Assembly: GCF_020055675.1 (NCBI RefSeq)
Contig: NZ_JAIPUS010000001.1
Span: 1 to 64,000 of the forward strand
DNA length: 64,000 nucleotides
Direction of reading: 5' to 3'
Source: Marivita sp.
GTDB lineage: Bacteria > Pseudomonadota > Alphaproteobacteria > Rhodobacterales > Rhodobacteraceae
The notes under the pieces are model-generated. The model was not told where the DNA came from and made no database searches. It saw nothing but the letters and a program-made list of their open reading frames with translations. Shown in pieces: positions 1 through 14,720 of this stretch. Made by a program: the position numbers and the translations under genes. Every line of letters begins with the position of its first letter. The first letter of the stretch is position 1.

Positions 1-2601
1 ACCTCCGGTTCGACCGGCACGCCCAAGGGGGTGATGATCGAGCACCGCAACGTGCAGAACTTCTTCACCGGCATGGACGACCGGATTGCGCATGACGACC
101 GCAAGGTCTGGCTCGCGGTCACGTCGCTCTCCTTCGACATCTCAGTGCTGGAGCTCTTCTGGACCCTCTCGCGGGGCTTCGAGGTGGTGCTTCTGGGTGA
201 CGAGAAGTTCGTCGCGGGCGGCGAGACCGGCGGCGACGGGCATGGCGCGGTGGAAGGCGGCATGGATTTCTCTCTCTATTACTGGGGAAACGACGACGGG
301 GTCGGAACCGACAAGTACACCCTGCTCCTCGAAGGCGCAAAATTCGCCGACGAGAACGGCTTCCAGGCGGTCTGGACGCCCGAGCGGCATTTCCACGCCT
401 TCGGCGGGCTCTACCCGAACCCGTCCGTCACCGGGGCCGCCGTGGCAGCTATCACCAAGCATATCGGGGTGCGCGCGGGCTCCTGCGTCGCACCGCTGCA
501 TCATCCGGCCCGCATCGCCGAGGAATGGGCAGTGATCGACAACCTGACCAACGGGCGCGCCGGCCTCGCGATCGCCAGCGGCTGGCAGCCGGATGATTTC
601 GTCCTGCGCCCGGAAAACACACCGCCCGAAAACAAGACCGCGATGTTCGAGTCGATCGCGCAAGTGCGCAAACTCTGGCGCGGTGAAGCGGTGGCCTTTC
701 CGCGCAAGGACGGCCAGATGCACGAGGTTGTCACACAGCCGCGCCCTGTCTCCAGGGAACTGCCGATCTGGGTCACGACCGCCGGCAATCCTGACACGTG
801 GCGAGAGGCCGGGGCCAAGGGGGCCAATGTCCTCACCCATCTCCTGGGTCAATCCGTGGAGGAGGTTGCGGAAAAGATCGCGCTGTACCGTCAGGCCCTG
901 CGCGATGCCGGACACGATCCGGAAGACTTCACCGTTACGCTGATGCTGCACACCTGCCTTGCCGAAACGCGCGACGCGGCACGCGAGATTGCACGCGAAC
1001 CGATGAAGGACTACCTGCGCTCCGCCGCCGGTCTCATCAAGCAATACGCCTGGGCCTTCCCGGCTTTCAAACGGCCGGACGGTGTGAAAAACGCGTTCGA
1101 GTTGGACCTTGGCGACCTGAGCGAGGAAGACCTCGAAGGCATTCTCGATTTCGCGTTCGAGCGGTATTTCAACGACAGCGGCCTGTTTGGCACGATCGAG
1201 GACGCGCTGGCCCGTGTCGATCAGCTCAAGGCCATCGGCGTGTCCGAAATCGCCTGCCTGATCGACTATGGCATCGCGACGGATCAGGTCCTGGAGGGAT
1301 TGAAACCGCTGGCCGAGGTGGTGTACCGATCGGCCCCCGAGACCGACCACGAGGAAACCGACTTTTCCATGGCAGCCATGCTGGCACGACACGGCGTGAC
1401 CCACATGCAGTGTACGCCCTCGATGGCACAGATGATTGTCATGGACGATGACGCCCGGGCGCAGCTGCGCGGGCTCAAGCATGTTTTTCTTGGAGGAGAG
1501 GCGCTCCCCGGTGCATTGGTCGCGCAGCTCAACCGGGCAACGGATGCCACGATCACCAACATGTACGGACCGACAGAAACCACGATCTGGTCCGCAACCG
1601 AACCCGGCTCGGCGCATGAGGCGACAGTCAATATCGGCCGCCCTATCGCCAACACGCAGCTTTACGTGTTGGATGACGCGCTCGCTCCGATGGGCATCGG
1701 CGAAACCGGAGAACTCTGGATCGGCGGCGATGGCGTGACACGTGGCTACTGGCAGCGCGACGCGATGACAGCAGACAGGTTCCGCGCCAACCCGTTCGGG
1801 CAGGGCCGCGTTTACCGCACCGGCGATCTGGTCCGCCGTCGCGCCGATGGCCGGATCGATTTCCTGGGCCGCACCGATACACAGGTCAAGCTGCGCGGCT
1901 TCCGCATCGAGCTTGGCGAAATCGAAAGCGCCCTCCAGGAGACAGGCGGCATCACCAATGCGGTTGTCATGCCCCACGAGAAGACACCCGGTGACGTGCG
2001 GCTCGTGGCTTATTTCACGGCAAGCACGGCAATCGACACGAAAGCCCTGCGCGCCGATCTCGCCGCGCGCCTGCCGGATTACATGATCCCGGCCCATTTC
2101 GTGGCGCTCGACGCCTTTCCCGTCACTCCGAACCAGAAGATTGACCGAAACGCGCTGCCCGCCTTCTCAGCGGCCCCGGAGGCGCCCAAAAAACCGCAGG
2201 TTGCCGCGCCGCAACAGGGGGCCGGGCAGGCCGACGAGCCGCTGCGCCGCCGGGTCGCAGAAATCTGGACCGAGGTTCTGGGCGTTCAGTCGATTGCGCC
2301 AGACGACAATTTCTTCGACCTCGGAGGGCATTCGCTGCTTGCGGTGCAGACCCATCGCGCGCTCCGGGACAGGTTGGACTTGGCCAAACTCTCGATCACC
2401 GACATCTTCCAGTATCCGACCCTGGCAGGTCTGGCCGACCGCGTGGCCAAACTGGGTGGCGCCGCTCAAGGCACAGCATCAGCTTCAACGGATCCGGCAA
2501 CCGTGACACCCATGACCAAACCGGCCGGCCGGGACCGTGCGCAAGCCCGCGCCGATGCGATGGCCCGCCGTCGCGCCATGCGCGCCAGGCGACAGGCGTA
2601 A
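1..2601 (+). CDS. NRPS with luciferase-like monooxygenase inserted in its adenylation domain (5' partial)
   Basis: The left window edge removes the 5' end, so any condensation domain and the first adenylation cores are outside. The frame opens at core A3 (TSGSTGTPKG), then A4 (FDIS, nt 133-144). A whole FMN-dependent luciferase-like monooxygenase is spliced in at about nt 262-1320 (MDFSLYYWG, PLHHPARIAEEW, GWQPDDF). The A domain then resumes with A5 (NMYGPTE, nt 1558), A7 (YRTGD, nt 1813), A8 (RGFRIELGEIE) and A10 (NQKIDRNALP). A carrier domain follows, with its phosphopantetheine serine in LGGHSLL at nt 2332-2334. The C-terminus is an Arg/Ala-rich tail without a thioesterase. This is the MupA/Atu3671-type layout. 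It presumably oxidises an aminoacyl thioester; the downstream polysaccharide genes suggest the product decorates a glycan, which is inference. Confidence 0.93.
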   Translation, partial: TSGSTGTPKGVMIEHRNVQNFFTGMDDRIAHDDRKVWLAVTSLSFDISVLELFWTLSRGFEVVLLGDEKFVAGGETGGDGHGAVEGGMDFSLYYWGNDDGVGTDKYTLLLEGAKFADENGFQAVWTPERHFHAFGGLYPNPSVTGAAVAAITKHIGVRAGSCVAPLHHPARIAEEWAVIDNLTNGRAGLAIASGWQPDDFVLRPENTPPENKTAMFESIAQVRKLWRGEAVAFPRKDGQMHEVVTQPRPVSRELPIWVTTAGNPDTWREAGAKGANVLTHLLGQSVEEVAEKIALYRQALRDAGHDPEDFTVTLMLHTCLAETRDAAREIAREPMKDYLRSAAGLIKQYAWAFPAFKRPDGVKNAFELDLGDLSEEDLEGILDFAFERYFNDSGLFGTIEDALARVDQLKAIGVSEIACLIDYGIATDQVLEGLKPLAEVVYRSAPETDHEETDFSMAAMLARHGVTHMQCTPSMAQMIVMDDDARAQLRGLKHVFLGGEALPGALVAQLNRATDATITNMYGPTETTIWSATEPGSAHEATVNIGRPIANTQLYVLDDALAPMGIGETGELWIGGDGVTRGYWQRDAMTADRFRANPFGQGRVYRTGDLVRRRADGRIDFLGRTDTQVKLRGFRIELGEIESALQETGGITNAVVMPHEKTPGDVRLVAYFTASTAIDTKALRADLAARLPDYMIPAHFVALDAFPVTPNQKIDRNALPAFSAAPEAPKKPQVAAPQQGAGQADEPLRRRVAEIWTEVLGVQSIAPDDNFFDLGGHSLLAVQTHRALRDRLDLAKLSITDIFQYPTLAGLADRVAKLGGAAQGTASASTDPATVTPMTKPAGRDRAQARADAMARRRAMRARRQA

Positions 2602-2605
2602 TGCG

Positions 2606-3562
2606 ATGAAACCAACGATCATCCTGGTGGCAGCGCTTGCCGTGATCATCTGCGGCATCGCCGTCTGGACCTATCTCAAACCGCCAGAAGCCCTGTCGCC
2701 TGATGCACTCGCCGCGCGGTACGACACGCCACTTTCGCCCCCCAATGACCCGCTGACGGTGTATCATCTCGGCCATTCGCTTGTCGGTCGCGACATGCCC
2801 GCAATGCTGGCGCAAATGGCAGGGCACCTGCATGCGTCGCAGCTTGGATGGGGCACGCCGCTCAAGGCGCATTGGGAACCGAATACGCCGATCAATGGCT
2901 TTGATGCAGAAAACGCCCATGATCACTTCCGCGATGCCAAAAAGGCGCTGGCCAGCGGCGATTACGACGCCTTCATCCTGACCGAGATGGTAGAGATCGA
3001 GGCGGCGATCGACCATTTCGCATCCCCCCGATATGTCGCAAGGTGGGCCAGGGCGGCGCGCGACGGGAACCCGGGAATCCGCGTCTACCTTTACGAATCC
3101 TGGCACGAATTGACCGATCCCCAAGGCTGGCTCACCCGGCTCGATGCGGATCCCGCCCGATACTGGGAAGGCGTGCTTCTGGCGCGGGCGATGTCAACCG
3201 AGCCTGACGCACCGCCGATCTACGTGATCCCGGCCGGTCGCGTGATGGCGGAATTCACCCGCCGGATCGAAGCGGGCGATGGCGTGGATGGCGTGACTTC
3301 GCGCGAGGACCTCTTTGCCCGCAAGGAAGACGGATCGCTGGATCCCATTCACCTCAATGATCTGGGCGCCTATCTCGTGGCTCTGACCCATTACGCGGTT
3401 CTGTACCATGACTCGCCTGTCGGCCTTCCCGCGCAGCTGAACCGCGCCGATGGCACGCCAGCCAAGGCGCCGGGCCCGCAGTTGGCCGAACTGATGCAAC
3501 AGACGGTCTGGGATGTCGTTTCGCGCGTGCCGGTCACCGGCATCTCGCAGGGCGCGAAATAA
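2606..3562 (+). CDS. SGNH-hydrolase-like secreted or membrane-anchored protein
   Basis: The start is the ATG at 2606, 4 nt after the NRPS stop; an in-frame ATG at 2537 would overlap the NRPS. The 318-residue product begins with a membrane anchor or signal (MKPTIILVAALAVIICGIAV), so the rest is probably periplasmic. Two blocks fit the SGNH/GDSL hydrolase fold: YHLGHSLVG near residue 50, with GHSL in place of GDSL, and DPIHLNDLGAYL near residue 250, a D-x-x-H block. The middle is not recognisable by eye. Tight spacing implies cotranscription with the thioesterase-less NRPS, so it could release or transfer the acyl group, or deacylate the polysaccharide. The fold call is moderate and the substrate unknown. 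Confidence 0.75.
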   Translation: MKPTIILVAALAVIICGIAVWTYLKPPEALSPDALAARYDTPLSPPNDPLTVYHLGHSLVGRDMPAMLAQMAGHLHASQLGWGTPLKAHWEPNTPINGFDAENAHDHFRDAKKALASGDYDAFILTEMVEIEAAIDHFASPRYVARWARAARDGNPGIRVYLYESWHELTDPQGWLTRLDADPARYWEGVLLARAMSTEPDAPPIYVIPAGRVMAEFTRRIEAGDGVDGVTSREDLFARKEDGSLDPIHLNDLGAYLVALTHYAVLYHDSPVGLPAQLNRADGTPAKAPGPQLAELMQQTVWDVVSRVPVTGISQGAK

Positions 3563-3616
3563 CACCGCGTCTCGACGGCTCGCGGGAAACGCGTTGTTTC
3601 CAGACACGCGGGTCTT

Positions 3617-3688
3617 TGCGGTCGCAGTTGCGCCGTATTTTAGTTAGATTATGTCTTGTCCGAGGCGTGCGGTCACAATTCGACCGCA
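3617..3688 (+). promoter_or_regulatory. Putative operator repeats upstream of wzz
   Basis: The heptamer TGCGGTC occurs at 3617-3623 and 3668-3674, and its reverse complement GACCGCA at 3682-3688. The last two form a perfect palindrome with a 7-nt spacer, TGCGGTC-acaattc-GACCGCA. It lies about 40 bp upstream of the GTG start chosen for the Wzz-like gene. Two-fold symmetry and a third half-site suggest a transcription factor site. The regulator is unknown. Confidence 0.4.
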
Positions 3689-3728
3689 AGCTGGGCAAGG
3701 CGGGGGCCTTGGTTTTGGAGCCGAACAC

Positions 3729-5063
3729 GTGGTGTACTTTCAATCGTTGGACGAGGTTTTCGCTGCGATCAAGCGGCGTCTGTGGCTGATCATCCTGATC
3801 ACCTTGATCGGATGCGTCCTGTCGGTCCTGATCGCCCTGTCGCAAATCCCGGTGTACAAGGCGACCGCGGTCGTTCAGATCGAGGACGCGCAAGTCAGCA
3901 GCACCAACTCGTCACCCGGCACCCCGACCGAAGCCCGCGGTGGCCTTGATGCGCGCCGCACCGTGCGTCTGATCGAACAACGGGTCATGTCGCGTGGCTC
4001 TCTGGTCGACATCATGGACACCTATGGTCTTTTCAACGAAGACCCCAGCATGACAGTGACACAGCGTCTGGCCCGGATGCGCGAAGCCGCTTCGATCAAT
4101 CCGATTCTCACCGGTGAGACATGGCAGACGAACAGGGCCGTCTCGGGCGTGGTGATCGAGGTCGACCTTGACGATCCCGAGACCGCCGCCGATGTGGCCA
4201 ACGAAATCATGGCCCGCGTGCTCGACGAGGCTCGCGCGCGCAGCGTGGGCCGCGCCCAGGTCGAGCTTGAGTTCTTCAATGCCGAAGAGGCGCGCATTCG
4301 CGAAGAGATCGTTGCGGCTGAAGAGGCGATCGGCGTGTTCAAATCAGACAATGCCGAGGTGCTGCCCGGCAATGTCAGTGTGCTGCAAGGCGAACTGACA
4401 ACACTGAACGGATCGCTTCTGACCCTGCGCCAGCAAATCCTGAGCCTGCAATCCAACACCTCGCGTGTCCGCCCCGAGACGCTGGCGCGGCAGGTGGACG
4501 GGCTGGAAGACCAGATCGCCCTGATCGAAGAGCGGATTGCCGAAATCAACGACCTGCTTACACGCGCACCAACGGTCGAGCGCGATCTGGCGGCGCTGGA
4601 GCGCGAACTTTCGCAGCTCAACGAACAATTTACCGTCATCTCGCGCCGGCAGGCCGATGCGCAAATGAGCCAGAGCCTCGAGCAGCAGCGCCAGCTCACC
4701 CGGTTCGAGGTTCTCGAACCCGCGATCCCGCCCAGCTACGCGATCTCGCGCAGCAAGCGGTCAATCGCGATGCTGGGCGGGATTGCAAGCGGCCTGTTCG
4801 CCTTGGGCGTGGCCTTTGTCCTGGAAATCCTCAACCCGCCATTGCGCACCAGCGGCCAGATGGAACGCGCCCTCGGTGTTCGCCCGGTTATTTCTGTTCC
4901 GATGCTCGGCACCGGGACGCAGAAATCAAAACCGGACAAGAAAAAGCGATCGAAGTTTGGTCTGGGCGTCCTTGTGGCGATGCTTGTGGGCCTGATTGCC
5001 TTGATCGCGAAACCGCTCGCCGGGTTGATCGGCTTCAATCTCAACCCGCGCACCGCCCCTTAG
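3729..5063 (+). CDS. Wzz/Chain-length-determinant-type polysaccharide co-polymerase
   Basis: This inner-membrane protein is expected to control chain length and export of a polysaccharide with the Wzy/kinase machinery. The GTG at 3729 is chosen because GGAG lies 8 nt upstream (3717-3720); an in-frame ATG at 3651 would put a palindromic operator inside the gene. The product is 444 residues. It has a first membrane helix near residues 17-40 (LWLIILITLIGCVLSVLIAL) followed by a Wzz-like beta segment (YKATAVVQIED). A long periplasmic coiled coil rich in Glu/Arg/Leu covers about residues 165-330. Two C-terminal membrane segments then flank a KKKRSK basic stretch. There is no ATPase domain; the ATPase partner is the convergent gene at 5645-6862. 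Confidence 0.88.
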   Translation: MVYFQSLDEVFAAIKRRLWLIILITLIGCVLSVLIALSQIPVYKATAVVQIEDAQVSSTNSSPGTPTEARGGLDARRTVRLIEQRVMSRGSLVDIMDTYGLFNEDPSMTVTQRLARMREAASINPILTGETWQTNRAVSGVVIEVDLDDPETAADVANEIMARVLDEARARSVGRAQVELEFFNAEEARIREEIVAAEEAIGVFKSDNAEVLPGNVSVLQGELTTLNGSLLTLRQQILSLQSNTSRVRPETLARQVDGLEDQIALIEERIAEINDLLTRAPTVERDLAALERELSQLNEQFTVISRRQADAQMSQSLEQQRQLTRFEVLEPAIPPSYAISRSKRSIAMLGGIASGLFALGVAFVLEILNPPLRTSGQMERALGVRPVISVPMLGTGTQKSKPDKKKRSKFGLGVLVAMLVGLIALIAKPLAGLIGFNLNPRTAP

Positions 5064-5070
5064 GGTCCAG
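5060..5070 (+). repeat. Left arm of 11-bp inverted repeat bracketing alaE
   Basis: TTAGGGTCCAG contains the stop codon of the Wzz-like gene. Its exact reverse complement is at 5638-5648, containing the stop codon of the convergent kinase gene. The two arms enclose the alaE-like gene. Confidence 0.6.
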
Positions 5071-5122
5071 ACACTGGGGCAAAATGCTCGACAGGGCGTG
5101 AGGAACCGAATAACCCACGCGC

Positions 5123-5530
5123 ATGAAAGGCTATTTTGTCGACACCCTCGGGGCGGTCGTGTTTTTCACGACCGTTGCTGGCTTCAGTGAACTGATAATC
5201 GCCGGGATGCACCCCGCTCAGGTCCTGATCGCGCGGCTCATCATGATACCGGTGATGATGCTGACCGGGCGACCTTATGGCATATGGCGAGACTTCGTCT
5301 TCAACATGCTGAGGCCGCAACGGCGACTTGCGGGTGTCATCTGTGATATCCTTGCATTCCTGACATTTCAGGTACCGGTCTACGTGACGACACTCGCAAT
5401 TGCCGGTGCAACACTTGCCGAGATCGTTTCCGCCGTCGGGGCTGCTATCGTCTTCATGATCGTGCTGAGCCGTCCATACGGGCTGTTCCTCGATGCGCTG
5501 AGACAATGGGCGGGCACGTCCGTCCGGTGA
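5123..5530 (+). CDS. alaE: AlaE-family L-alanine exporter
   Basis: This 135-residue integral membrane protein matches the E. coli AlaE pattern along its length. Shared points are an early D-T motif (VDTLGAVVFF), a charged pair in the first loop (QVLIARLIMIPVMML), RPYGIWRD near residue 50, then CDILAFLTFQVPVYV and a C-terminal RPYGLFLDALR. Four hydrophobic segments are visible, the family topology. AlaE exports L-alanine by proton antiport. It lies between the co-polymerase and the convergent kinase, so it may be a late insertion or may serve amino-acyl modification. The ribosome-binding site is poor: AGGAA lies about 16 nt upstream. Confidence 0.85.
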   Translation: MKGYFVDTLGAVVFFTTVAGFSELIIAGMHPAQVLIARLIMIPVMMLTGRPYGIWRDFVFNMLRPQRRLAGVICDILAFLTFQVPVYVTTLAIAGATLAEIVSAVGAAIVFMIVLSRPYGLFLDALRQWAGTSVR

Positions 5531-5556
5531 TACCTCGCAGCGGGTATCCCCACTCC

Positions 5557-5575
5557 AAGCCCGGCGATCGGGTTT
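5557..5575 (+). terminator. Possible short terminator after alaE
   Basis: The segment AAGCCCG-gcgat-CGGGTTT folds into a 7-pair stem (one G-T wobble) ending in TTT. It lies 27 nt after the alaE stop, in the 114-bp gap between convergent genes. The U-tract is short. Confidence 0.4.
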
Positions 5576-5637
5576 CTGCACCACGAGACGCAAAGGGCTG
5601 CCACATGACGGCACATGATCGCCACACAAATCAAGGC

Positions 5638-5648
5638 CTGGACCCTAA
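5638..5648 (-). repeat. Right arm of 11-bp inverted repeat bracketing alaE
   Basis: CTGGACCCTAA is the exact reverse complement of 5060-5070 and contains the stop codon of the kinase-like gene on the minus strand. Confidence 0.6.
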
Positions 5649-6862
5649 TAGGCGTATTCGCTGGACTCGTTCTGTTCAGCCTTGTTGAGCACAACGCCCA
5701 GAAGCGGTGTCGTTTCGCCCAGCCGGCGTTCCGTTTCCTTGATGTCATTCGCCTTGGTCAACCCGCCGGCGGCGACGATCAAAAGCGCATCAATATGCGG
5801 ACGCATCGCGATCACATCGTCATTGAGCAACGCAGGCGGCAGATCGAACAGCATCACGTCGGGGTCAAGCTGTGTCTCGATATCGCGCAGCGCCCGGCTG
5901 GTCGACGGGTCCTGTAGCAATTCCGCCGCATATGGCTCCGTGATCCCGTTGAACCCCAACGCCACATGGCTTCCTGCCGAAATCGAATTGGGCGCAAAAC
6001 CCTGCAAATGCCGCTCGACCGCGATTTGGCCGCGCAGCATGTCACCGATAGAGCCGGTATCGCGAACTCCGAAAATCTTGTGAAGGCTTGGGCTGCGCAT
6101 ATCCAGATCGAGCAGAACCGTGCGGCAATTCTCCTGTCGAGACAGGCTCACCGCGAGGTTTGCTGCGGTAAAGGTCTTGCCGCAGTTCTTTGTGGGCGAG
6201 GTGATCGCGACCCGCTTCCACCCGTTCTCCACCAAAGCCTGAAGCATCCGCGTGCGCAGAATGTCGAACCGCGTATGCGCCGGGTCCTCGCGCAGCGCGG
6301 TGACGATGTTCGACTTGGTGAGGCGCTTTACATCAATCTCGAACCGGTCCAGCCCGCGCCATGCCTCTTCGGGGTCATGTACGGGCTCCGGCCGGGTCTG
6401 CGCCACCGACGGGCTGGCCAGTACCAGCGGTGTCTTCGACGCGGCGGGCGCCTTGGAAATCCGCGGCTTTTGCGCCTCCAATTCGGTTGCGCGTTGACGC
6501 TCGGCCTCTTGGACCTGTTCCTCCTCAAGCTGTCCCAATCGGCGCAGCTCCGCCTCAAACTCCTCCGCACGGGCCTGTTCGGCCTTCCTGCCCGCATCGC
6601 GCTGACGCGACGCCTCCGCTTTTGCAAGTCGCTGCCGTTCGGCTTTCTGCTTGGCCGCGCGCTGCTGTTCCGCGGTGACATCCGTCTCGTGCCGGGCGCG
6701 CCTCGCATCTTCGGCGTCACGCTCGGCCTTGCGCTGTAACAACGCGTCTTTCTGGGCCAAGAGCGCTTCGGTGTCGGGATCAGGGCGCGCAATGTTCGGC
6801 GCGTCCACAGAGTTTCCCTGCCCACGCCGTTTCCGGCGTTGGAATTTCGGCTGGTCAGTCAT
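5645..6862 (-). CDS. BY-kinase-like (CpsD/CapB family) exopolysaccharide ATPase
   Basis: The 405-residue product has two parts. Residues 1-140 are a highly charged Ala/Arg/Glu/Lys stretch likely to form a coiled coil (repeats such as AERQRLAKAEASRQRD). Residues 170-405 are a P-loop ATPase of the bacterial tyrosine kinase/ParA type, with Walker A (SPTKNCGKTFTA), Walker A' (VLLDLDMRSP) and Walker B (VMLFDLPP). This class partners Wzz proteins in polysaccharide assembly, and a Wzz-like gene lies just across the alaE gene. The C-terminus (SSEYAY) has only two tyrosines rather than the usual cluster, so autophosphorylation is uncertain. A 207-bp gap separates it from the upstream glycosyltransferase, so it may have its own promoter. 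Confidence 0.87.
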   Translation of the reverse strand: MTDQPKFQRRKRRGQGNSVDAPNIARPDPDTEALLAQKDALLQRKAERDAEDARRARHETDVTAEQQRAAKQKAERQRLAKAEASRQRDAGRKAEQARAEEFEAELRRLGQLEEEQVQEAERQRATELEAQKPRISKAPAASKTPLVLASPSVAQTRPEPVHDPEEAWRGLDRFEIDVKRLTKSNIVTALREDPAHTRFDILRTRMLQALVENGWKRVAITSPTKNCGKTFTAANLAVSLSRQENCRTVLLDLDMRSPSLHKIFGVRDTGSIGDMLRGQIAVERHLQGFAPNSISAGSHVALGFNGITEPYAAELLQDPSTSRALRDIETQLDPDVMLFDLPPALLNDDVIAMRPHIDALLIVAAGGLTKANDIKETERRLGETTPLLGVVLNKAEQNESSEYAY

Positions 6863-6932
6863 GTTTCAGCCTCGTTACGCGGCATGGTCGCCTTTCGATC
6901 CATCTACTGGACATAATCACTCCCTGCCTGGG

Positions 6933-6950
6933 TGACAGGTCATTCTGTCA
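6933..6950 (-). promoter_or_regulatory. Palindrome TGACA-N8-TGTCA upstream of the kinase gene
   Basis: A 5-bp perfect inverted repeat with an 8-nt spacer lies about 70-90 bp upstream of the kinase ATG. On the minus strand one arm reads TTGACA, which resembles a -35 box, but I see no matching -10 box. The rest of the 6863-7069 gap shows no gene. Confidence 0.3.
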
Positions 6951-7069
6951 AGAATACGTCGGTTTTGAGGGCATTGTTGATCGGACATCCTGTTTCAGGA
7001 CCCGAACGGGGTGGCCCGGCCCCGATCAGACCAACCCGTGTCTTGAAGGACGTCATTCGCCTCGATCTT

Positions 7070-8038
7070 TTACTTGTATTCAATGAGTCGCATCTGTCTG
7101 TGGCTCAGTCGCCGGAGGTGATAGCGGATCATGCCGAGGCAATTGGGAAACTTCGACACTGTCAGCAAGACCGAATGGGCCCGTGCCTCGTGACCCGGCA
7201 AGCCAGAGCGCTGCAAGCCGAACACCGTCTTGAGATAGGACAGCCCGTAAACCGCCAGGACAAGCAATGGCACAATCGGTGACACAAAAACCCCGAGCAC
7301 TGCAATCATTGGCAAGATCAGCCCGTAAACCCATCCACGCAGCCGCTCCCGCACGAAATACTCCGGGTGCATACCGCCCACATGCGCAAACCCGTGCCCG
7401 GCGCGGACACCCCGCATCCACCATTGGCCGAACCGAAGCCGCCCGCCATCATGCAACGCCATGTCCGCCCCGATCCGCTCGAGCCGCCAGCCCGCCTTGC
7501 GCAGACGAGAGCAGAATTCATCATCCTCGGAAGAGATCACAGACGGATCGAACCCGCCAACGTTTTGGAAGGCCGACACGCGCACGACCATGTTGCCGCC
7601 ACAGCTCTCGATCTCGCCCTCCGGACGCTTCCATTCGAAATCCAACATCTGGTTGAACACCGTTTGATCGCGATCCAGTTCGGCCTGACGACCGGTGACA
7701 AAGCCAAGATCCGGCGCCGCCCGCAGCCTGGCCTCGGCAGCATCGAGCCAGCCCGCCACCATCCGGCAATCGCCATCCAGGAATTGCACGAAGTCGGGCG
7801 GATCGTCATGCGCCATCAGCATAGTCAACCCCACATTGCGCGCCCGCGCAGCGCTGAAGGAAACCGACATGTCGAGGTGCATCACTTCCGCCCCGGCCTT
7901 TTGCGCGTTGGCCACGCTGTCATCCGTCGAGCCGCTGTCAACATAAACGACCCTGCGCGCCTGCGGGACAACGGTGGCCAGCGATTGAACCAACCGCTCT
8001 CCTTCGTTGCGTCCGATCAAAACAACATCAACACTCAT
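7070..8038 (-). CDS. Family 2 glycosyltransferase
   Basis: The ATG at 8038 overlaps the stop of the upstream gene as TGATG, indicating translational coupling. The 322-residue product begins with a GT-A fold (SVDVVLIGRNEGERL), then the nucleotide-binding VDSGSTDDS and the metal-binding region FLDGDCRM near residue 90. The block SSEDDEFCSRLRKAGW (near residue 170) contains the E-D-D and R-x-x-W-like features of inverting GT2 enzymes. Two hydrophobic segments near the C-terminus (GLILPMIAVLGVFVSPIVPLLVLAVYGLSYL would span the membrane) suggest membrane attachment. It likely adds a sugar to a lipid-linked intermediate. Donor and acceptor cannot be read from the sequence. Confidence 0.88.
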   Translation of the reverse strand: MSVDVVLIGRNEGERLVQSLATVVPQARRVVYVDSGSTDDSVANAQKAGAEVMHLDMSVSFSAARARNVGLTMLMAHDDPPDFVQFLDGDCRMVAGWLDAAEARLRAAPDLGFVTGRQAELDRDQTVFNQMLDFEWKRPEGEIESCGGNMVVRVSAFQNVGGFDPSVISSEDDEFCSRLRKAGWRLERIGADMALHDGGRLRFGQWWMRGVRAGHGFAHVGGMHPEYFVRERLRGWVYGLILPMIAVLGVFVSPIVPLLVLAVYGLSYLKTVFGLQRSGLPGHEARAHSVLLTVSKFPNCLGMIRYHLRRLSHRQMRLIEYK

Positions 8039-9291
8039 CACTTGTCCTCCGGGTGCGGGCGCAGACCAAGGGTGGGTCCACCTGACGCGTAAGAGCAGAC
8101 AAGGTCGGAAAGCCAGCGCGCTTCCCGTGCCGCGTCATACTCGGCCATGACCTTGGCCCGCCCGGCCGCGCCATAGCGCTTGCGCTGTTCGGGATCGGCG
8201 AGGAGCGCGTCCATCGCCCCGGCAAAGGCAACGCCGTCGCCGGGTGCCACCACGCGCCCGCTGACCCCGTCTTCAACCAATTCGGGAATGCCCGCGATCC
8301 GTGTTGTCAACACGGGCACCTGCGCGGCCATCGCTTCCATCAAGACCACCGGCACGCCCTCCGCAAAGCTGGGCAGGGCAAACACGTCCGTCTGTGCCAA
8401 TTCCTCGGCCACTTCGGCCTGTGACCGGTAGCCAAGGAACACCACACGGTCCTGCAAGCCGCGCGCCTTGACCTCTGCCTCAAGTGCGGCGCGCTCCGGC
8501 CCGTCCCCGACCAGCCGCGCGGTCAGGTCAGGATAGCTGTCCACCAACCGCGCAACTGCATCGATCAGGATCGGCACGCCCTTGACCCCGGCAAGCCGGC
8601 CAACGAACAGCACCTGGGCTCCGGATCGGTCCGGCACGCGGGAATAACGCGACGGATCCACACCGCAATGCACGATATGCAGTTTGTTCCAGGTCTCCGG
8701 TCCGGCAAAACACATCAGCTGCGACCGGCAGAAATGGCTGATGCACGCCACGAACGACGCGCGCGCGGCCTTTTCATCAATGCGCCAGTGATGCGGTTCA
8801 AAGAATATATCGGGTCCGTGGATGGTAAAGCTCCAGCGGATTCCCGACATCGCACCAACCAGCATCGCAACGGTACAAGACGCCTTGGCAATATGATTGT
8901 GCAAATGGGTCACACCGTCATCGGTCAACCTGGCGGCCAGAACGCCCGCTTCGACAAAGTAGATCAGGTTGTAGAGCCGCCCCTTGATCCCCTTGGGTGC
9001 GGTGCGCCATGCAAGTCCCAGCGCCGAGACATAGCGCCCCGGCGACTGCATCCAGCGCCAATGCGCCTTGATTGTGGTGACCGGATCACGCACCGCTTTC
9101 AGAACTCCGAAGGTGCGCGCATGCTCCGCGCGCTGTTCCGGCCCGACCAGATGTTCGGCCCCGGTTGTGCGGATCGAACAGGTCAGAACCTCATGGCCCA
9201 GCGCACGCAAATTGGCCACTTCACGTTGGATGAACGTATCGCTGGCGCGGGGATATTCGCCGGTCAGATAGGCGATTTTTGGCAATGTCAT
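8038..9291 (-). CDS. Family 4 glycosyltransferase (colanic-acid WcaL-like)
   Basis: The start is the ATG at 9291, which overlaps the stop of the upstream gene as ATGA. A longer open frame to 9621 is only the shadow of that gene. The 417-residue protein opens with IAYLTGEYPRASDTFIQREV, typical of GT4 enzymes of exopolysaccharide clusters. It contains HLHNHIAKASCTVA and the C-terminal Rossmann domain entry VLFVGRLAGVKG. The E-x7-E donor motif is EGVPVVLME, near residue 320. It is a retaining, GT-B-fold enzyme that probably extends the repeat unit at the cytoplasmic face of the membrane. The sugar specificity is not predictable. Confidence 0.9.
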   Translation of the reverse strand: MTLPKIAYLTGEYPRASDTFIQREVANLRALGHEVLTCSIRTTGAEHLVGPEQRAEHARTFGVLKAVRDPVTTIKAHWRWMQSPGRYVSALGLAWRTAPKGIKGRLYNLIYFVEAGVLAARLTDDGVTHLHNHIAKASCTVAMLVGAMSGIRWSFTIHGPDIFFEPHHWRIDEKAARASFVACISHFCRSQLMCFAGPETWNKLHIVHCGVDPSRYSRVPDRSGAQVLFVGRLAGVKGVPILIDAVARLVDSYPDLTARLVGDGPERAALEAEVKARGLQDRVVFLGYRSQAEVAEELAQTDVFALPSFAEGVPVVLMEAMAAQVPVLTTRIAGIPELVEDGVSGRVVAPGDGVAFAGAMDALLADPEQRKRYGAAGRAKVMAEYDAAREARWLSDLVCSYASGGPTLGLRPHPEDK

Positions 9292-10223
9292 TGCACGGCT
9301 CCCCACGGTGTTTTTTCCTCGGGCAGGGCGTTGGCCCAGTCGGGCCGCGTGAAATCGTATCGCATGGGCAACATCCGCTGGCGCAACACCTCCTCGCGCA
9401 GCAGCCCTGGCAGCTTGTTGCGCTGTTTCTGCAAGCGTTTGGCCAGGCTGGACACCGCGCGCCAAGGGACAGGCACCACCATCTTGGGCCAGCCGCCCCG
9501 GCGCAACGCGTCGATCACCTTGGCCCGTGTCGGCACAATGCGATCGATCACGGTGAATGCGCCATCCACCTGCCGCACTGTCGCCTGCACCAATGCCGCG
9601 GCACAATGATTCACATGGCACATCGGCAACGGATCATCGCCGCCACTCCTGAACAGCACCGGCCCAACACCCATTCCGAGATGCGCGTTCCAAAGGTGAT
9701 CCGCGTCATGCACGATACCGGGGCGCAGGATCGCAAGCGTGTCCAGATCCGCCGCCTTTGCCAGGTTTTCCTGCGCCACCTTGGCGCCGGAATAGGCGTC
9801 CCGCGGCGCCTCGGGGGTCACCAGCGGGCAATCATCCGTCAGCGTCCCGCCGATCGGCACATGGCTGGTGTCGAACACCGCGATGGAACTGGCCAATGTC
9901 AGCCGCCGCGTCCCGGCCTCTGCCATCGCCCGCGTCAGCCGCGCGGTGCCACCGATGGTCAGCCGCGCATGCTCCTGCGCATCGCCGGACATGGCGGCGG
10001 CAAGGTGGATCACGGCATCGACGCGATCCAACGCGTCAACCAGCGCCGGAACCGCCGCATCGTCGCCCAGATCAATCGCCACAGATGCCACACCGGTGCC
10101 CAGCGCGACAGCAGAGCGTTGAACGGCCACCACCTCGAGCCCAGCCTTGACGGCAGCGGCAACGGTGGCGCGCCCGATAAAGCCGGACGCCCCGGTGATC
10201 GCGACCCGTGTCACATCGCCCAT
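9288..10223 (-). CDS. NAD-dependent epimerase/dehydratase (extended SDR)
   Basis: The ATG at 10223 is preferred because GGAG lies 8 nt upstream; it overlaps the previous gene by 13 nt. The 311-residue protein has the Rossmann motif ITGASGFIGRAT near residue 8, an HLAAAMSG segment, a serine in LASSIAVFD and the catalytic Y-x3-K in YSGAK near residue 150. These are hallmarks of extended SDRs that epimerise, dehydrate or reduce nucleotide sugars. Its position between two glycosyltransferases and an oxidoreductase suggests sugar-nucleotide supply. The C-terminal third is rich in Arg/Leu and less conserved. Confidence 0.87.
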   Translation of the reverse strand: MGDVTRVAITGASGFIGRATVAAAVKAGLEVVAVQRSAVALGTGVASVAIDLGDDAAVPALVDALDRVDAVIHLAAAMSGDAQEHARLTIGGTARLTRAMAEAGTRRLTLASSIAVFDTSHVPIGGTLTDDCPLVTPEAPRDAYSGAKVAQENLAKAADLDTLAILRPGIVHDADHLWNAHLGMGVGPVLFRSGGDDPLPMCHVNHCAAALVQATVRQVDGAFTVIDRIVPTRAKVIDALRRGGWPKMVVPVPWRAVSSLAKRLQKQRNKLPGLLREEVLRQRMLPMRYDFTRPDWANALPEEKTPWGAVQ

Positions 10224-11338
10224 GGCATCGGCTCCATTCGGTCGCACGTCGTGGTCATGGCCTGTGCGCCCGCATGTTCCCCGGCGTTCTGGATCGCCAG
10301 CGCGACTTCGGTCATGTGCAGCGCAAAATCATTGGACAGGCGCGACGGCCGCCCTTCGTGGAGCGCGTCGAGCATCTCTGCCGGGCCAAGCATGAAATTC
10401 ATCGCCGCCGCGCCCCAGCGGTTCACCTTGGGATGCGTCGGCCGTGACAGCTTCAGCCTTCTGGGAAAGGGCGATTCCATCAACCGGCGCCGCACCGTCA
10501 TGCGCTTGGCAAATGTCACCTTGGCCGAATTGTCCCATGCCGCCTTGCACGACAACACGCCATGGTCGCCGATCACTCTGATCCGATGATCATGCGGTGC
10601 CACGATGGAGCAGGTCAGCCGCGTCACCGGCCCGTTGTCGAAGAACAGCGTCGCCACCGACAGGTCCGGAGCATGAGGACCGCGACCCTCCTTGTCCGGG
10701 ATCGTCTCGGCCGAGGCCGCCACGACCGTGCGGACCGATCCAAACCACGAGATCAGCCAGCCAAGGTAATACCCTGCATGTTCAAGCGTGCAGCCCACCT
10801 TGAACTCGTCCTCGAACGGCCATGGCGCGCCCGAATCGGAAATCCATTTCTTGTAGGCAGCCTGCGGCACGAAACCGTCATCCAGCTCGGCATAGATGGC
10901 GCGCGGCGTGCCACACGTCCCGCGGCGCAGCGCATGACCCAATGTCTGAGCCGCCTCGCCCAGCACGCTGCACGGGGCAGACGCCAGCATCACCCCCGCC
11001 GCGTCGGCGCTCGCATGCAGGGTCTTGGCGTCTTCCAGCCGCAGTGCCAGCGGTTTTTCCGAATAGGTGTGACACCCAGCGGCGAGACAGGCCGAATTCA
11101 CCTCGAAATGCGCAGAGGGGTTGGTCAGGTTGAGCACCACCCCATCCCGCGGATGCTGGTCGAGCAACGCCGCGCGCGACTCCGCCGCCGGCACGTTCCA
11201 GTGCGCGCAGAATTGCGCCAGACGCGTCGCGTCGTGGTCGTACACGCCGGCAACGGTAATCCCGTCCATGGCCTGCAAGGACGTCATGTAAAGGTCGGCC
11301 ACGAACCCGCAGCCAATGATCGACACGACACCGCTCAC
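10211..11338 (-). CDS. Gfo/Idh/MocA family NAD(P)-dependent oxidoreductase
   Basis: The start is a GTG at 11338 with GGAGG about 8 nt upstream. The 375-residue protein has an N-terminal Rossmann fold (VSIIGCGFVADLYMTSL) and the family's EKP signature in TYSEKPLAL near residue 95. A C-terminal alpha/beta substrate domain includes the CTLEHAGYYLGWLISWFG region, whose His-x-x-Tyr resembles the family's catalytic area. Such enzymes oxidise or reduce sugars or nucleotide sugars, for example at C3 before transamination. It is the first gene of the minus-strand run 11338 to 7070. No aminotransferase is seen nearby. Confidence 0.87.
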   Translation of the reverse strand: MSGVVSIIGCGFVADLYMTSLQAMDGITVAGVYDHDATRLAQFCAHWNVPAAESRAALLDQHPRDGVVLNLTNPSAHFEVNSACLAAGCHTYSEKPLALRLEDAKTLHASADAAGVMLASAPCSVLGEAAQTLGHALRRGTCGTPRAIYAELDDGFVPQAAYKKWISDSGAPWPFEDEFKVGCTLEHAGYYLGWLISWFGSVRTVVAASAETIPDKEGRGPHAPDLSVATLFFDNGPVTRLTCSIVAPHDHRIRVIGDHGVLSCKAAWDNSAKVTFAKRMTVRRRLMESPFPRRLKLSRPTHPKVNRWGAAAMNFMLGPAEMLDALHEGRPSRLSNDFALHMTEVALAIQNAGEHAGAQAMTTTCDRMEPMPWAM

Positions 11339-11556
11339 ACTGAACCTCCAACTGGAAAACGGGCGGATACCATGGCTTGTGGAAGTCGAACGCGCTTGTC
11401 TGTCACACTCTGCTCTCTGGTCTTTTTATCGCCTTGGGCGTGCTTACACCAACCAATCATGGTCAGAATTCGACAAAAGCTCATTTTATTGATGAAGACT
11501 CAGGAATTCCTTTGGTTTGTCTTGATTTTGCACCGATCACCCGACGATGTGACGCC

Positions 11557-12345
11557 ATGGCAAAAGATGACAAATCCATTCGAGCCGAACCCATGCGCTT
11601 CTGGGGCGCCGGCTATGACGTGCCGGTGACTGTTCCCAACTGGCCAGCCCTGCTTGATGAGCTGACGTCCCGGTTCACGGCAGATCAGGGCTTCTCCCTT
11701 GCCACGATCAATCTCGACCACCTTGTCAAACTGCGCTCTGATCCCCGCTTCCGCGAGGCATATGGCGCTCAGGACATGGTTGTCGCGGATGGCAACCCCA
11801 TCGTCTGGCTGTCGAGGCTGGCCGGTCACGATGTCGATCTGATCCCCGGCTCGGACGCGATCCTGCCAATCACACGGCTGGCTGCGGATCATCGCCGGAC
11901 CATCGCCCTCGTCGGCAGCACGGAGGAGGCGCTGACCGGCGCAAGAACCTATCTGGAACGCGAAGTCCCCGGCGCGCGCGTCGTGGCGACGATTGCCCCG
12001 TGCATGGGCTTTGATCCGACAGGAGCGTCGGCAGATGATGTGCTGGCCAGACTGGAGGGCGCAGGCGCCGATCTTGCCTATCTCGCGCTTGGCGCTCCGA
12101 AACAGGAACTCTTCGCGGCCTACGGACGGCGCAAACTGCCCTCGGTCGGGTTCGTGTCAATCGGCGCCGGTTTGGACTTTTTCGCCGGAACGCAGGTCCG
12201 CGCGCCCCGATGGGTGCGCGCCATCGCGATGGAATGGGTCTGGCGTGTCCTGCAGCACCCGCGCCGCATGGTCCCACGCTATGCAAAGTGCGGCCTGATC
12301 CTGCCCGCCGAAGCGGCGCATGCGCTCGCACTCCGCATCGGCTAG
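11557..12345 (+). CDS. WecG/TagA/CpsF family glycosyltransferase
   Basis: The ATG at 11557 is chosen by domain boundaries; the upstream in-frame extension to 11377 has no similarity to the family. The 262-residue product carries the family pattern: TINLDHLVKLRSDPRFREAY, then VADGNPIVW near residue 75, GSDAILP and ALVGSTEEAL. The LGAPKQELF segment near residue 180 and GAGLDFFAG with APRWVRAIAMEWVWRVLQ are strongly diagnostic. The family transfers N-acetyl-mannosamine-type or related sugars to a polyprenyl-diphosphate-linked acceptor. It is divergent from the oxidoreductase across a 218-bp region that should contain promoters for both strands. I could not place those promoters. Confidence 0.92.
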   Translation: MAKDDKSIRAEPMRFWGAGYDVPVTVPNWPALLDELTSRFTADQGFSLATINLDHLVKLRSDPRFREAYGAQDMVVADGNPIVWLSRLAGHDVDLIPGSDAILPITRLAADHRRTIALVGSTEEALTGARTYLEREVPGARVVATIAPCMGFDPTGASADDVLARLEGAGADLAYLALGAPKQELFAAYGRRKLPSVGFVSIGAGLDFFAGTQVRAPRWVRAIAMEWVWRVLQHPRRMVPRYAKCGLILPAEAAHALALRIG

Positions 12346-12358
12346 TGTCCAGGCGCCG

Positions 12359-12997
12359 CTAGTCCAACAGATGAACACGGCCCCCGGCCGCCTCGGCATC
12401 GGCGTGGTCATGGGTCACAAGCAGGACGGGCAACCCCTTTGCCCGCGCCTGGGCAAATACCAGGTCGCGGATCTTGTCGCGCCGCTCCGTATCCAGCCGT
12501 GAAAACGGCTCGTCCAGAAGCAGTGCTTTCGGTCCCGACAGCAGCATCCGCATCAGCGCAACACGCGCCTTTTGACCGCCCGAAAGCGTATCGGGATCCC
12601 GGTCGCCGTACCCGCCCAGCCCGATATCTTCCAGGGCCGCCGCAGTCCGGCGCGCCCGTTCCGCACGGCCACGGACCGTCGCACGCAGCCCGAAGGCAAG
12701 GTTGTCACCCACCGACAAATGGGGAAACAGCAATTCATCCTGGAACAGGATGCCCACGTGCCGCGCTTCGGGGGCCAGATCTGTGATGTCCTGACCGTTC
12801 AACCGCACCCGCCCCTGCGCGGCGAACCCCGACGCCAACGTGCCGATGACATATGACAATAGCGTTGATTTCCCGGACCCGCTGGGCCCCATCACGGTCA
12901 ACACCTCCCCAGGTGCGACATGGTCCGAGATATCGACCAGCCTGCGCCCGTCGCGGCGGATCACCACGCCATCCAGTGTCAGTCCGGTCTCAGCCAT
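12359..12997 (-). CDS. ynjD: ABC transporter ATP-binding protein, YnjD-like
   Basis: The ATG at 12997 overlaps the permease gene by 8 nt. The product is 212 residues, short for an ABC ATPase and like E. coli YnjD. It has Walker A (GPSGSGKST), Q-loop (FQDELLFPHLSVGDNLAFGL), the signature LSGGQKARVAL, Walker B (ALLLDEPFSRLD) and the H-loop (VTHDHADAEA). It is the last gene of a three-gene operon with a two-halved permease and a periplasmic binding protein, the YnjBCD arrangement. The substrate of that system is not established. It converges on the WecG-like gene with 13 nt between stops. Confidence 0.88.
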   Translation of the reverse strand: MAETGLTLDGVVIRRDGRRLVDISDHVAPGEVLTVMGPSGSGKSTLLSYVIGTLASGFAAQGRVRLNGQDITDLAPEARHVGILFQDELLFPHLSVGDNLAFGLRATVRGRAERARRTAAALEDIGLGGYGDRDPDTLSGGQKARVALMRMLLSGPKALLLDEPFSRLDTERRDKIRDLVFAQARAKGLPVLLVTHDHADAEAAGGRVHLLD

Positions 12998-14708
12998 GCC
13001 GCAACCCCCTGCGATTGCGCCAAACCACGGCGGGCACCAGCAGCGCCAGGGCAAACGGAAGCAGCGCCAGCGCGGTCTGGCTCAGCGCGTAGACAGCGAT
13101 CACGCGACGGTCGCCGCCAGAGGCCAGCGCGACCGCCTCGGTGGTCAGCGTCTGCACCCGGCCCGCCCCGGCGAGAAGCGTCGGCAGGAACTGCCCGATC
13201 GACACTGCAAATCCCACCGCCGCCGCTGTCAGGATGGGCCGCAGCAGCATTGGCAGGCGCACGCGCCACAGAACTCCGTCGCATCCGGCCCCGAGGGCCC
13301 GCGCCACATGGCCATATCGGGCATCCCAGGCGCGGAACGGGTCGGCCAGCGACAGGAACACGTAAGGCAGGACGAAAATGATATGCACCGCAATGACGGC
13401 CATGCGGTTGCCATCCAGACCGGCGAAAATTGCCAGCGTCTGCAACCCGGTCAGGAATGCGATCTGCGGCACGATCAGCGGCACATAAAGCAGCCAGAGC
13501 GCCCGCGCGCCGGGCCGCAGGCCGTGCCGCTCCTCTGCCTCAAGGCACGCCAATGTCAGGAACAGCGCCACCAATGTCGCGCTTGCCGCGATCACCAGTG
13601 TCTCGGTCGCGACAGGCCATAGGCTCATTGCGTGGCGCATCCATGTCCTGGTGCTGAACCCGTCGGGCAAAAGAGCGGGAAAGCTCCAGAACCCGGCGAA
13701 GGACCAGACGACCAGGCCCAGAAGGCCGAACAGGATCGCACCGCCACTCAGCAGCGCCGCAACCAGCGACAGCGCGCGCACCGTTCGTGTCGCGCCGCCC
13801 CGCGCACCCGAGGCAACCCAGCGGCGCCCCAGACCTGCGACACCGACCTCGCACATCCGCCACAGAAGCAAGGCGGCGATCACGAGCCCCAATTGCCAGA
13901 CCGCCGCGGCCGAGGCAAGAAACCGAAGCTTCAGGTCCGGGTCGTTCATCCAACGTAGGATCTGGACCGCCAGCGTCGGTGGCTTTGTCGGCCCGAGGAT
14001 CAGCGACACGTCCACCACGGTCATGGAAAAGGCCAACACGGCGTAAACCGGCAGGCGGATTTGCGCATAGACGCGCGGAAACACGGTCTTGAACCATGCC
14101 GTGACCGGCGCATAACCAAGGGCCATTGCCGTATCCCGCGCTTGTGCCGTCCGGATTTGCGACATCGCGGCCAGCGTCATGAGCAACAGGAACGGGACTT
14201 CCTTGACGATCAGCCCAGCGGTGAGAGACAGGCCCAGCGGGTCCTGCAGGATCAGCACATCCGGCGGTCGATGCCAGCCGGTCAACCAGGGCGAGGCCGC
14301 CCGCGCGATCCACCCCGACGGTGCGATCAGGAACGCCAGCCCGAACGCCGCCGCCGCGTGCGGCACCGACAAGAGCGGTGACAGCAGCCGCTCGATCATC
14401 CGGAAAACGACCGATCCGCTCCAGGCCGCGCAGATCACAGCCACCAGCAAGAGCGAAAGCGCCGTCGCCGCGAGACCCGTTGTCACGCTCAGGACAGAGG
14501 CCGGGACAAGTCCGGGCCAGTCGAACAGCATGGCAAAGGCATCCAGTCCGATCTCGGTCCCCCCGAGCGCGGGCATGTACCCGAAGGCGGGGCCAAGCGT
14601 GCCCAGCACCCCGGCCGCCACCGGACCGAGCATGATGCCGAGCGTCAGCACCGGGGCCCAAGGCAGCACCCGGGCCCGGACCGATTGTGTCTCGCAGGTT
14701 GCCGCCAC
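12990..14708 (-). CDS. ynjC: ABC transporter permease with two fused halves, YnjC-like
   Basis: The 572-residue protein starts with GTG at 14708, 12 nt after the binding-protein gene. About twelve hydrophobic segments fall into two halves, each with a permease coupling loop. The first contains ARDTAMALGYAPVTAWFKTVFPR near residues 195-220 and the second GHVARALGAGCDGVLWRVRLP near residue 475. The single-chain double permease is a feature of YnjC and of ThiP/SfuB-type importers. Its neighbours make it the membrane component of a YnjBCD-type importer. The substrate cannot be deduced. Confidence 0.88.
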   Translation of the reverse strand: MAATCETQSVRARVLPWAPVLTLGIMLGPVAAGVLGTLGPAFGYMPALGGTEIGLDAFAMLFDWPGLVPASVLSVTTGLAATALSLLLVAVICAAWSGSVVFRMIERLLSPLLSVPHAAAAFGLAFLIAPSGWIARAASPWLTGWHRPPDVLILQDPLGLSLTAGLIVKEVPFLLLMTLAAMSQIRTAQARDTAMALGYAPVTAWFKTVFPRVYAQIRLPVYAVLAFSMTVVDVSLILGPTKPPTLAVQILRWMNDPDLKLRFLASAAAVWQLGLVIAALLLWRMCEVGVAGLGRRWVASGARGGATRTVRALSLVAALLSGGAILFGLLGLVVWSFAGFWSFPALLPDGFSTRTWMRHAMSLWPVATETLVIAASATLVALFLTLACLEAEERHGLRPGARALWLLYVPLIVPQIAFLTGLQTLAIFAGLDGNRMAVIAVHIIFVLPYVFLSLADPFRAWDARYGHVARALGAGCDGVLWRVRLPMLLRPILTAAAVGFAVSIGQFLPTLLAGAGRVQTLTTEAVALASGGDRRVIAVYALSQTALALLPFALALLVPAVVWRNRRGLRHG

Positions 14709-14720
14709 GCGCGCGCCCTT

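Follow-up and report, generated by a model that had tools for sequence, protein, structure and literature searches.

A putative NRPS-PKS line for acyl decoration in an exopolysaccharide locus of Marivita sp. and other bacteria

Introduction

Formyl-glycine starter modules feed polyketide synthases (PKSs) in the biosynthesis of oxazolomycin, phthoxazolin and conglobatin; the available text describes OzmO, PtxE and CongA as a formyltransferase joined to a glycine adenylation (A) domain and a peptidyl carrier protein (PCP), with the PKS partner adjacent (PMC5764310, PMC4504003). Here we analyzed a stretch of 64,000 nucleotides from Marivita sp. (GCF_020055675.1, contig NZ_JAIPUS010000001.1), referred to as the window, which begins inside the gene of a non-ribosomal peptide synthetase (NRPS) that appears to belong to such a starter and has a PKS partner. 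Unlike OzmO, PtxE and CongA, the Marivita module carries a luciferase-like monooxygenase (LLM) within its A domain, and its genes lie in exopolysaccharide (EPS) loci. An ATP-pyrophosphatase of the OzmP/CongE type was not among the locus open reading frames (ORFs) scanned with Pfam, and no genome-wide search for it was made.

The chain-ending modules of myxothiazol and melithiazol assembly, named MtaG and MelG, possess an active condensation (C) domain and a thioesterase (TE) on the same protein. According to the available text, a flavin monooxygenase that interrupts their glycine A domain between a4 and a5, the same position as in Marivita sp., hydroxylates the alpha carbon of glycine (PMC10204066). 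These modules release the foregoing chain as an amide, whereas the Marivita module has a formyltransferase and no active C domain and thus resembles an initiator. In Dlt-type D-alanylation, adenylation, a carrier and an SGNH-type protein are combined to modify a surface polymer. The Marivita locus differs from Dlt in having a PKS, an LLM and a formyltransferase, and neither MBOAT (DltB) nor DltD was matched among the locus proteins scanned.

Among known PKSs that serve polysaccharide, the nearest we found are the capsule PKSs RkpA and WcbR, type I enzymes that are likewise encoded among polysaccharide genes; the available text describes no NRPS partner for them, and the likeness is drawn from their description (PMC3908369). 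In a Roseibaca-centred survey of 37 genomes, 18 species were reported to have a hybrid NRPS-like/T1PKS cluster, which was more common than any other of the novel PKS, NRPS, RiPP and RRE clusters described there, and the authors suggest antibiotic or antitumour peptides; the word 'polysaccharide' does not occur in the main text (PMC10584327). By size and spacing only (NRPS of 4,527 nt, a gap of about 1 kb, PKS of 6,333 nt) we infer that this cluster is the pair found in Marivita sp. (PMC10584327). In its available part, the genome paper of P. inhibens lists Inhi_1972 as a PKS and Inhi_1974, two tags on, as an NRPS, possibly the same pair again (PMC4062626). In the accessible open-licence literature, subscription journals being mostly outside our scope, no paper was found that ties the NRPS-PKS pair to polysaccharide.

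Results

The assembly comprises 82 contigs with a total of 3.6 Mb, and the named genomes closest to it in the collection are mostly Marivita. The first base of the window is also the edge of contig C8, and the NRPS frame is therefore open at its 5' end (Table 1). Within the protein, the LLM model of the MupA/Atu3671 type (TIGR04020) matches residues 90-440 with 489.3 bits against a cut-off of 244.45, covering model positions 1-340 of 341. It is flanked by the A4-like motif SFDISVLELF and the A5-like motif NMYGPTETTIW, so the placement of the monooxygenase between A4 and A5 that an earlier note on this DNA had described was confirmed. The specificity code reads DILQFGMIW (nine positions read, the tenth assumed), and DILQ[FLMY]G[ML]IW is found in 36 of the 47 homologue rows. 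We take codes of this type to be glycine codes, and the A domain is predicted to activate glycine.

Twelve of 16 genomes of the same genus hold an orthologue with an open frame of 1519-1546 aa, which means that about 660 aa of the Marivita sp. NRPS are missing from the window; the four others (G001, G002, G004 and G005) gave no strong NRPS match. Another contig of the assembly, C5, carries genes for a Wzx-type flippase, a type I PKS (2158 aa), a family 2 glycosyltransferase (GT2, 339 aa) and an NRPS N-terminus, in this order. The N-terminus consists of the N and C domains of a formyltransferase, followed by the beginning of an A domain. The PKS has the domain order KS-AT-KR-DH-ACP-TE, displays the motifs TACSTS, HGTGT, GHSMG, TGGFGGIG, GGHSL and GFSGG and shows no ER domain among its Pfam calls. 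PKS, GT2 and NRPS genes overlap or are separated by at most 5 bases in the C5 locus (L023), as are PKS, GT2, NRPS and SGNH genes in L025. In loci of the same genus, among them L025-L027 and L042, PKS, GT2 and NRPS stand in one row with SGNH, Wzz, BY-kinase and glycosyltransferase genes.

In G010 and in G008 the locus lies on a single contig, one side of which is collinear with contig C5 and the other with the window. Based on this synteny on both sides, the two halves most likely represent one locus that was broken by the assembly. An identity of 58.6% over the 87 residues that C5 and C8 share had suggested that C5 might be an unrelated paralogue. This was rejected because the synteny places C5 beside the window, and the failure to find a second NRPS right half in the Marivita sp. 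genome also counts against it. Over the shared stretch C5 is 74-85% like five loci of the same genus and C8 only 54-61%; the C8 end reaches up to 73% with other genera (L029, L040 and L041 were disregarded here as wrong-frame ORFs). Beyond the first 276 bases the C8 frame is 71-84% like the same five loci. The closest DNA to the first bases among 295 genomes is 85% identical over 191 bases. Bases 1-276 may represent a mosaic allele, or an assembly artefact or chimeric contig end. Despite this odd end, the NRPS gene itself is not in doubt.

The earlier note had proposed that a C domain might be found to the left of base 1. This was not the case: C5 supplies the formyltransferase and the C-terminal lobe of a C domain, and PF00668 (Condensation) is unmatched anywhere in the Marivita sp. 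genome, so that a full domain beyond the left edge was rejected. The lobe was recognized by profile comparison, which was used because the fold comparison, made on residues 1-297 of the N-terminal model, says little on residues 297-500. A motif of the NFHD[GA]-x-LP type is present in C5 and in 42 of the 47 homologue rows. Nothing that marks a chain-ending module was found in the Marivita NRPS: it has no HHxxxDG motif in the C5 and window rows, no Condensation match, only the C-terminal lobe of such a domain, and no TE in the Pfam scan of its window part. Nor did the leftward extension reveal a separate siderophore or peptide operon.

The linkage of the NRPS to polysaccharide genes was assessed in a family-wide survey of 295 genera, one genome each, using E <= 1e-150 for the NRPS and E <= 1e-20 for the glycosyltransferase WecG. 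NRPS was found in 103 and WecG in 138 genera. WecG was present in 98 of the 103 NRPS-positive and in 40 of the 192 NRPS-negative genera (Fisher p 2e-38, in a test that ignores shared ancestry). In at least 78 of the 103 genera the distance between WecG and NRPS is no more than 30 kb (median 12.4 kb), a lower bound because the WecG position was absent from the matches listed in five genera; among the others, WecG is on another contig in 14, missing in five and at 38 kb in one. In the set of 31 genomes with a strong NRPS match, where places were compared by eye, WecG lies within 25 kb on the NRPS contig in 29. The exceptions are G044 (WecG on another contig) and G038 (none), both assemblies of about 400 contigs.

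Loci were further sorted into 47 groups and scored for eight polysaccharide markers, PKS, SGNH, the glycosyltransferase GT2a and phosphopantetheinyl transferase (PPTase). For this tally the window genes of Marivita sp. were entered by hand from the Pfam scan, L063, L066 and L067 (which equal L024, L025 and L027) were omitted here and from the tree, and marks for GT4_EpsE from the window reference, an entry that was out of frame, were used in no tally. At least one marker was found in 41 groups and at least two in 38, in line with the linkage that the earlier note had anticipated for homologues. The six groups that lack a marker are G056, Methylobacterium, Novosphingobium (L073), Aliiroseovarius, Nostoc and Janthinobacterium. 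G056 nevertheless has WecG 12 kb away, and Methylobacterium nevertheless encodes a Wzz/kinase protein, a UDP-glucose dehydrogenase and a family 4 glycosyltransferase (GT4). Methylobacterium had been considered as a non-EPS control and was rejected, as polysaccharide genes were found there. All 41 marker-bearing groups also have a PKS. A PKS of the pair's own type is present in 43 groups, not 44, the mark for Nostoc being a distant PKS. GT2a was detected in 36 of the 47 groups, a glycosyltransferase gene lies between the PKS and NRPS genes in many loci, and a PPTase gene is present in 24 groups.

The pair also stands among polysaccharide genes on annotated plasmids of Ruegeria (two records), Parasedimentitalea, Aminobacter, Paracoccus and Shinella, and the pairing extends to Hyphomicrobiales and to one Deinococcus plasmid; its bearers include numerous bacteria of marine and soil habitats. 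On the latter (Deinococcus actinosclerus, L152, 12314-24299), separate formyltransferase, NRPS and PKS genes follow each other in this order inside a capsule locus, and this PKS has a C domain at its C-terminus in place of a TE. In the tree, from which L055 and L091 were omitted as too short, 41 alphaproteobacterial sequences form one clade (100/99); Aliiroseovarius and Methylobacterium fall outside, and the branch of the Deinococcus row is long and of unsure placement. On the Aliiroseovarius M344 plasmid (L148, 18009-31748), a related formyltransferase-A-LLM-PCP protein precedes a KS-AT-KR-DH-ACP-C-A-PCP-TE protein, so the same starter is apparently used in a longer assembly line. On a Paracoccus marcusii plasmid (L146, 1-2552), the polysaccharide region contains a second NRPS gene, which is immediately followed by a WecB/TagA gene.

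All the genes that the earlier note had named were recovered in place by Pfam or profile matches and, for the SGNH protein, by an AlphaFold model (Table 1). The AlaE-family gene was not in its gene list.

Table 1. Features of the Marivita sp. locus. Coordinates refer to the window unless another contig is given.
Feature	Coordinates	Strand	Basis and remarks
NRPS, C-terminal part, 866 aa	1..2601	+	Pfam and TIGR04020; 5'-open at contig edge
NRPS contig-end stretch unlike same-genus sequences	1..276	+	identity comparison
NRPS A domain, N-part	1-240	+	PF00501, first part
NRPS LLM insert	about 268-1320	+	TIGR04020
NRPS A domain, C-part	about 1330-2157	+	PF00501, second part; AMP-binding_C
NRPS PCP	about 2251-2445	+	PP-binding
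SGNH hydrolase fold, N-terminal helix at residues 2-24	2606..3562	+	AlphaFold model
Wzz chain-length co-polymerase	3651..5063	+	PF02706; homologues suggest start near base 3729
AlaE-family protein	5123..5530	+	Pfam, PF06610
BY-kinase-like ATPase	5645..6862	-	Pfam/profile
Glycosyltransferase family 2	7070..8041	-	Pfam/profile
EpsE-like GT4 glycosyltransferase	8038..9291	-	start set by homologues
NAD-dependent epimerase/dehydratase family	9288..10247	-	Pfam
GFO/IDH/MocA oxidoreductase	10211..11338	-	Pfam
WecG/TagA/CpsF glycosyltransferase	11377..12345	+	Pfam/profile; right end of locus
NRPS, N-terminal part (formyltransferase, C-domain remnant, A start)	contig C5, L023:2-2266	-	outside the window

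The Wzx-type protein on C5 together with Wzz, the BY-kinase and the WecG-type glycosyltransferase in the window are components expected of a Wzx/Wzy-type EPS locus. As to the Wzy polymerase, an O-antigen-ligase-type gene occurs in the loci of Aminobacter, Shinella, Agrobacterium AGB01 and R. grahamii.

The protein encoded downstream of the NRPS had no Pfam match at E 0.001, and its profile found no match among PDB sequences up to E 10; on its alignment the best weak Pfam hit was DUF4886, seen in three of 12 members with a best E of 0.0036. Its AlphaFold model (mean pLDDT 83.5) matches SGNH/GDSL esterases, and the matched folds include the acyltransferases SsfX3 and PatB. GHS (Ser58) and DxIH (Asp246, His249) are invariant in 12 homologues. 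As judged from the modelled fold and the Ser and Asp-x-x-His residues, the protein is a member of the SGNH hydrolase superfamily, and it is probably periplasmic.

The AlaE-family gene, of a family of L-alanine exporters, lies between Wzz and the BY-kinase, and there is no room for it in L024-L027 and L042 of the same genus. Related loci have a gene of about 700 aa beside the BY-kinase that fuses GFO/IDH/MocA and epimerase domains; it is missing at window positions 6862-7070, and the Marivita sp. genome holds only weak matches to it. To the right, an ABC transporter set at 12359-15935 (an ATPase and permease-like and binding-protein-like frames, the latter two without a family scan) is collinear in relatives and marks the right boundary of the EPS locus.

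Discussion

We favour, with moderate confidence, the idea that this conserved Wzx/Wzz-type EPS locus, whose right half lies in the window, has a built-in two-module NRPS-to-PKS line whose acyl product decorates the polysaccharide. The formyltransferase-A-LLM-PCP protein would load glycine, formylate its amino group and oxidise its alpha carbon on the PCP. The chain would then pass to the partner PKS, which would add one malonyl-type unit, reduce it (KR) and dehydrate it (DH), giving a short unsaturated C4 acyl thioester derived from an amino acid. Transfer or release might be carried out by the terminal TE of the PKS, or by the C domain on the Deinococcus plasmid. The acyl group would become a sugar substituent in a lipid-linked repeat unit, to be flipped by Wzx and polymerised under the control of Wzz and the BY-kinase, and the SGNH protein might finally trim or move acyl groups.

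That the NRPS acts before the PKS is deduced from its lack of an active C domain, from the terminal position of the TE on the PKS and from the fact that in Deinococcus, Methylobacterium and Aliiroseovarius the PKS gene immediately follows that of the NRPS. The combined precedents of formyl-glycine starters and of monooxygenases within glycine A domains suggest that the product of the formyltransferase-LLM module and the PKS is an unsaturated acyl group that derives from formyl-glycine, is oxidised at the alpha carbon and has been extended by two carbons. Sequence does not give its exact structure, because an alpha-hydroxy-formylglycine could lose formamide or cyclise. The earlier note, which saw an oxidised amino-acyl group attached to a surface polysaccharide, was right in its observation and is partly supported in its interpretation. 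The connection to polysaccharide genes holds up, while the product has to be revised: given a one-module PKS partner and a formyltransferase at the start, the unit is likely a polyketide acyl group derived from formyl-glycine and not a plain oxidised amino-acyl group. Three features make transfer to a sugar the preferred reading: the pair is retained beside polysaccharide genes, many loci have a glycosyltransferase gene between its two genes, and the PKS from Deinococcus terminates in a type of domain that couples acyl groups to acceptors.

A number of observations weigh against this idea. No enzyme that joins the product to a sugar was identified, and the TE could merely release a free acid; for this reason we infer the attachment to the sugar, and the chemistry of the other steps is likewise a proposal. 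In Rhodobacterales the NRPS gene follows the PKS gene, and in several Hyphomicrobiales the two are divergent, so gene order there lends no support to an NRPS-first line. Wzy was not identified near the NRPS in Marivita sp., where no genome-wide search was made, both PPTase matches in this genome lie outside the locus, and the SGNH gene was found in only 25 of the 47 groups. The test of co-occurrence between NRPS and WecG carries no correction for shared ancestry. Wzx/Wzz/WecG-type genes are absent from the stretches read around the homologues of Aliiroseovarius (which has a GT2 about 16 kb away and XrtD), Nostoc and Streptomyces, from the 8 kb flanks in B. glumae and, in a marker search, from Janthinobacterium; Novosphingobium L073 shows no marker on a short stretch.

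The most serious competitor, to which we give a minor though real chance, is a free product: the pair would make a small molecule that the TE sets loose and that is merely co-expressed with EPS or regulates it, as a signal, inhibitor or matrix-associated metabolite. The terminal TE fits such a product, as does the Aliiroseovarius homologue, which feeds a longer assembly line away from Wzx/Wzz/WecG-type genes, and the available text of the survey treats the size-matched cluster as secondary metabolism (PMC10584327). However, the association of the pair with EPS genes is maintained in Rhodobacterales, in Hyphomicrobiales and on one Deinococcus plasmid, and a glycosyltransferase gene separates PKS and NRPS in many loci, with GT2a in 36 of 47 groups. 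By analogy to the type I PKS genes rkpA and wcbR described in capsule loci (PMC3908369, available text), the PKS product might instead anchor or carry the polysaccharide in the manner of a lipid. This is unlikely, as a single module with no ER among its Pfam calls and a formyl-amino-acid starter is not expected to yield a long saturated chain.

It is distinctly improbable that the NRPS works alone in a Dlt-like manner, with PCP-bound glycine being oxidised and then passed to the polysaccharide by the SGNH protein, a scheme that comes close to what the earlier note had in mind. An A-PCP protein with an SGNH gene directly downstream and fold matches that include SsfX3 and PatB would suit this scheme, but a PKS is present in all 41 marker-bearing groups and SGNH in 25 of 47, the locus ORFs scanned include no MBOAT, and the SGNH protein with its N-terminal helix probably resides in the periplasm, away from the cytosol in which the NRPS would be expected. 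That the pair is an unrelated operon beside EPS genes by chance is very hard to reconcile with the genus-level linkage and with interleaved, overlapping genes; it could appeal only to homologues with no polysaccharide genes nearby (Aliiroseovarius, Nostoc, Streptomyces, B. glumae).

Decoration of the polysaccharide by the NRPS-PKS product thus remains our preferred explanation. The wider claim, of a widespread bacterial bimodule in which formyl-glycine is alpha-oxidised and extended once by a PKS to decorate surface polysaccharide, we regard as an even bet; the span behind it is 103 of 295 sampled genera of the family (about one third), Hyphomicrobiales and one Deinococcus plasmid. If true, it would provide a family-wide example of an assembly line from secondary metabolism that is put to use in building the cell envelope, within a compact and testable pathway of one NRPS module and one PKS module. 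Clusters reported as cryptic antibiotics would need to be re-read, and genome-mining counts would change. A very common PKS/NRPS cluster of marine Rhodobacteraceae would gain a function, namely the decoration of exopolysaccharide with a nitrogen-bearing acyl group, and this new polysaccharide substituent could matter for attachment, biofilms and interactions with algae.

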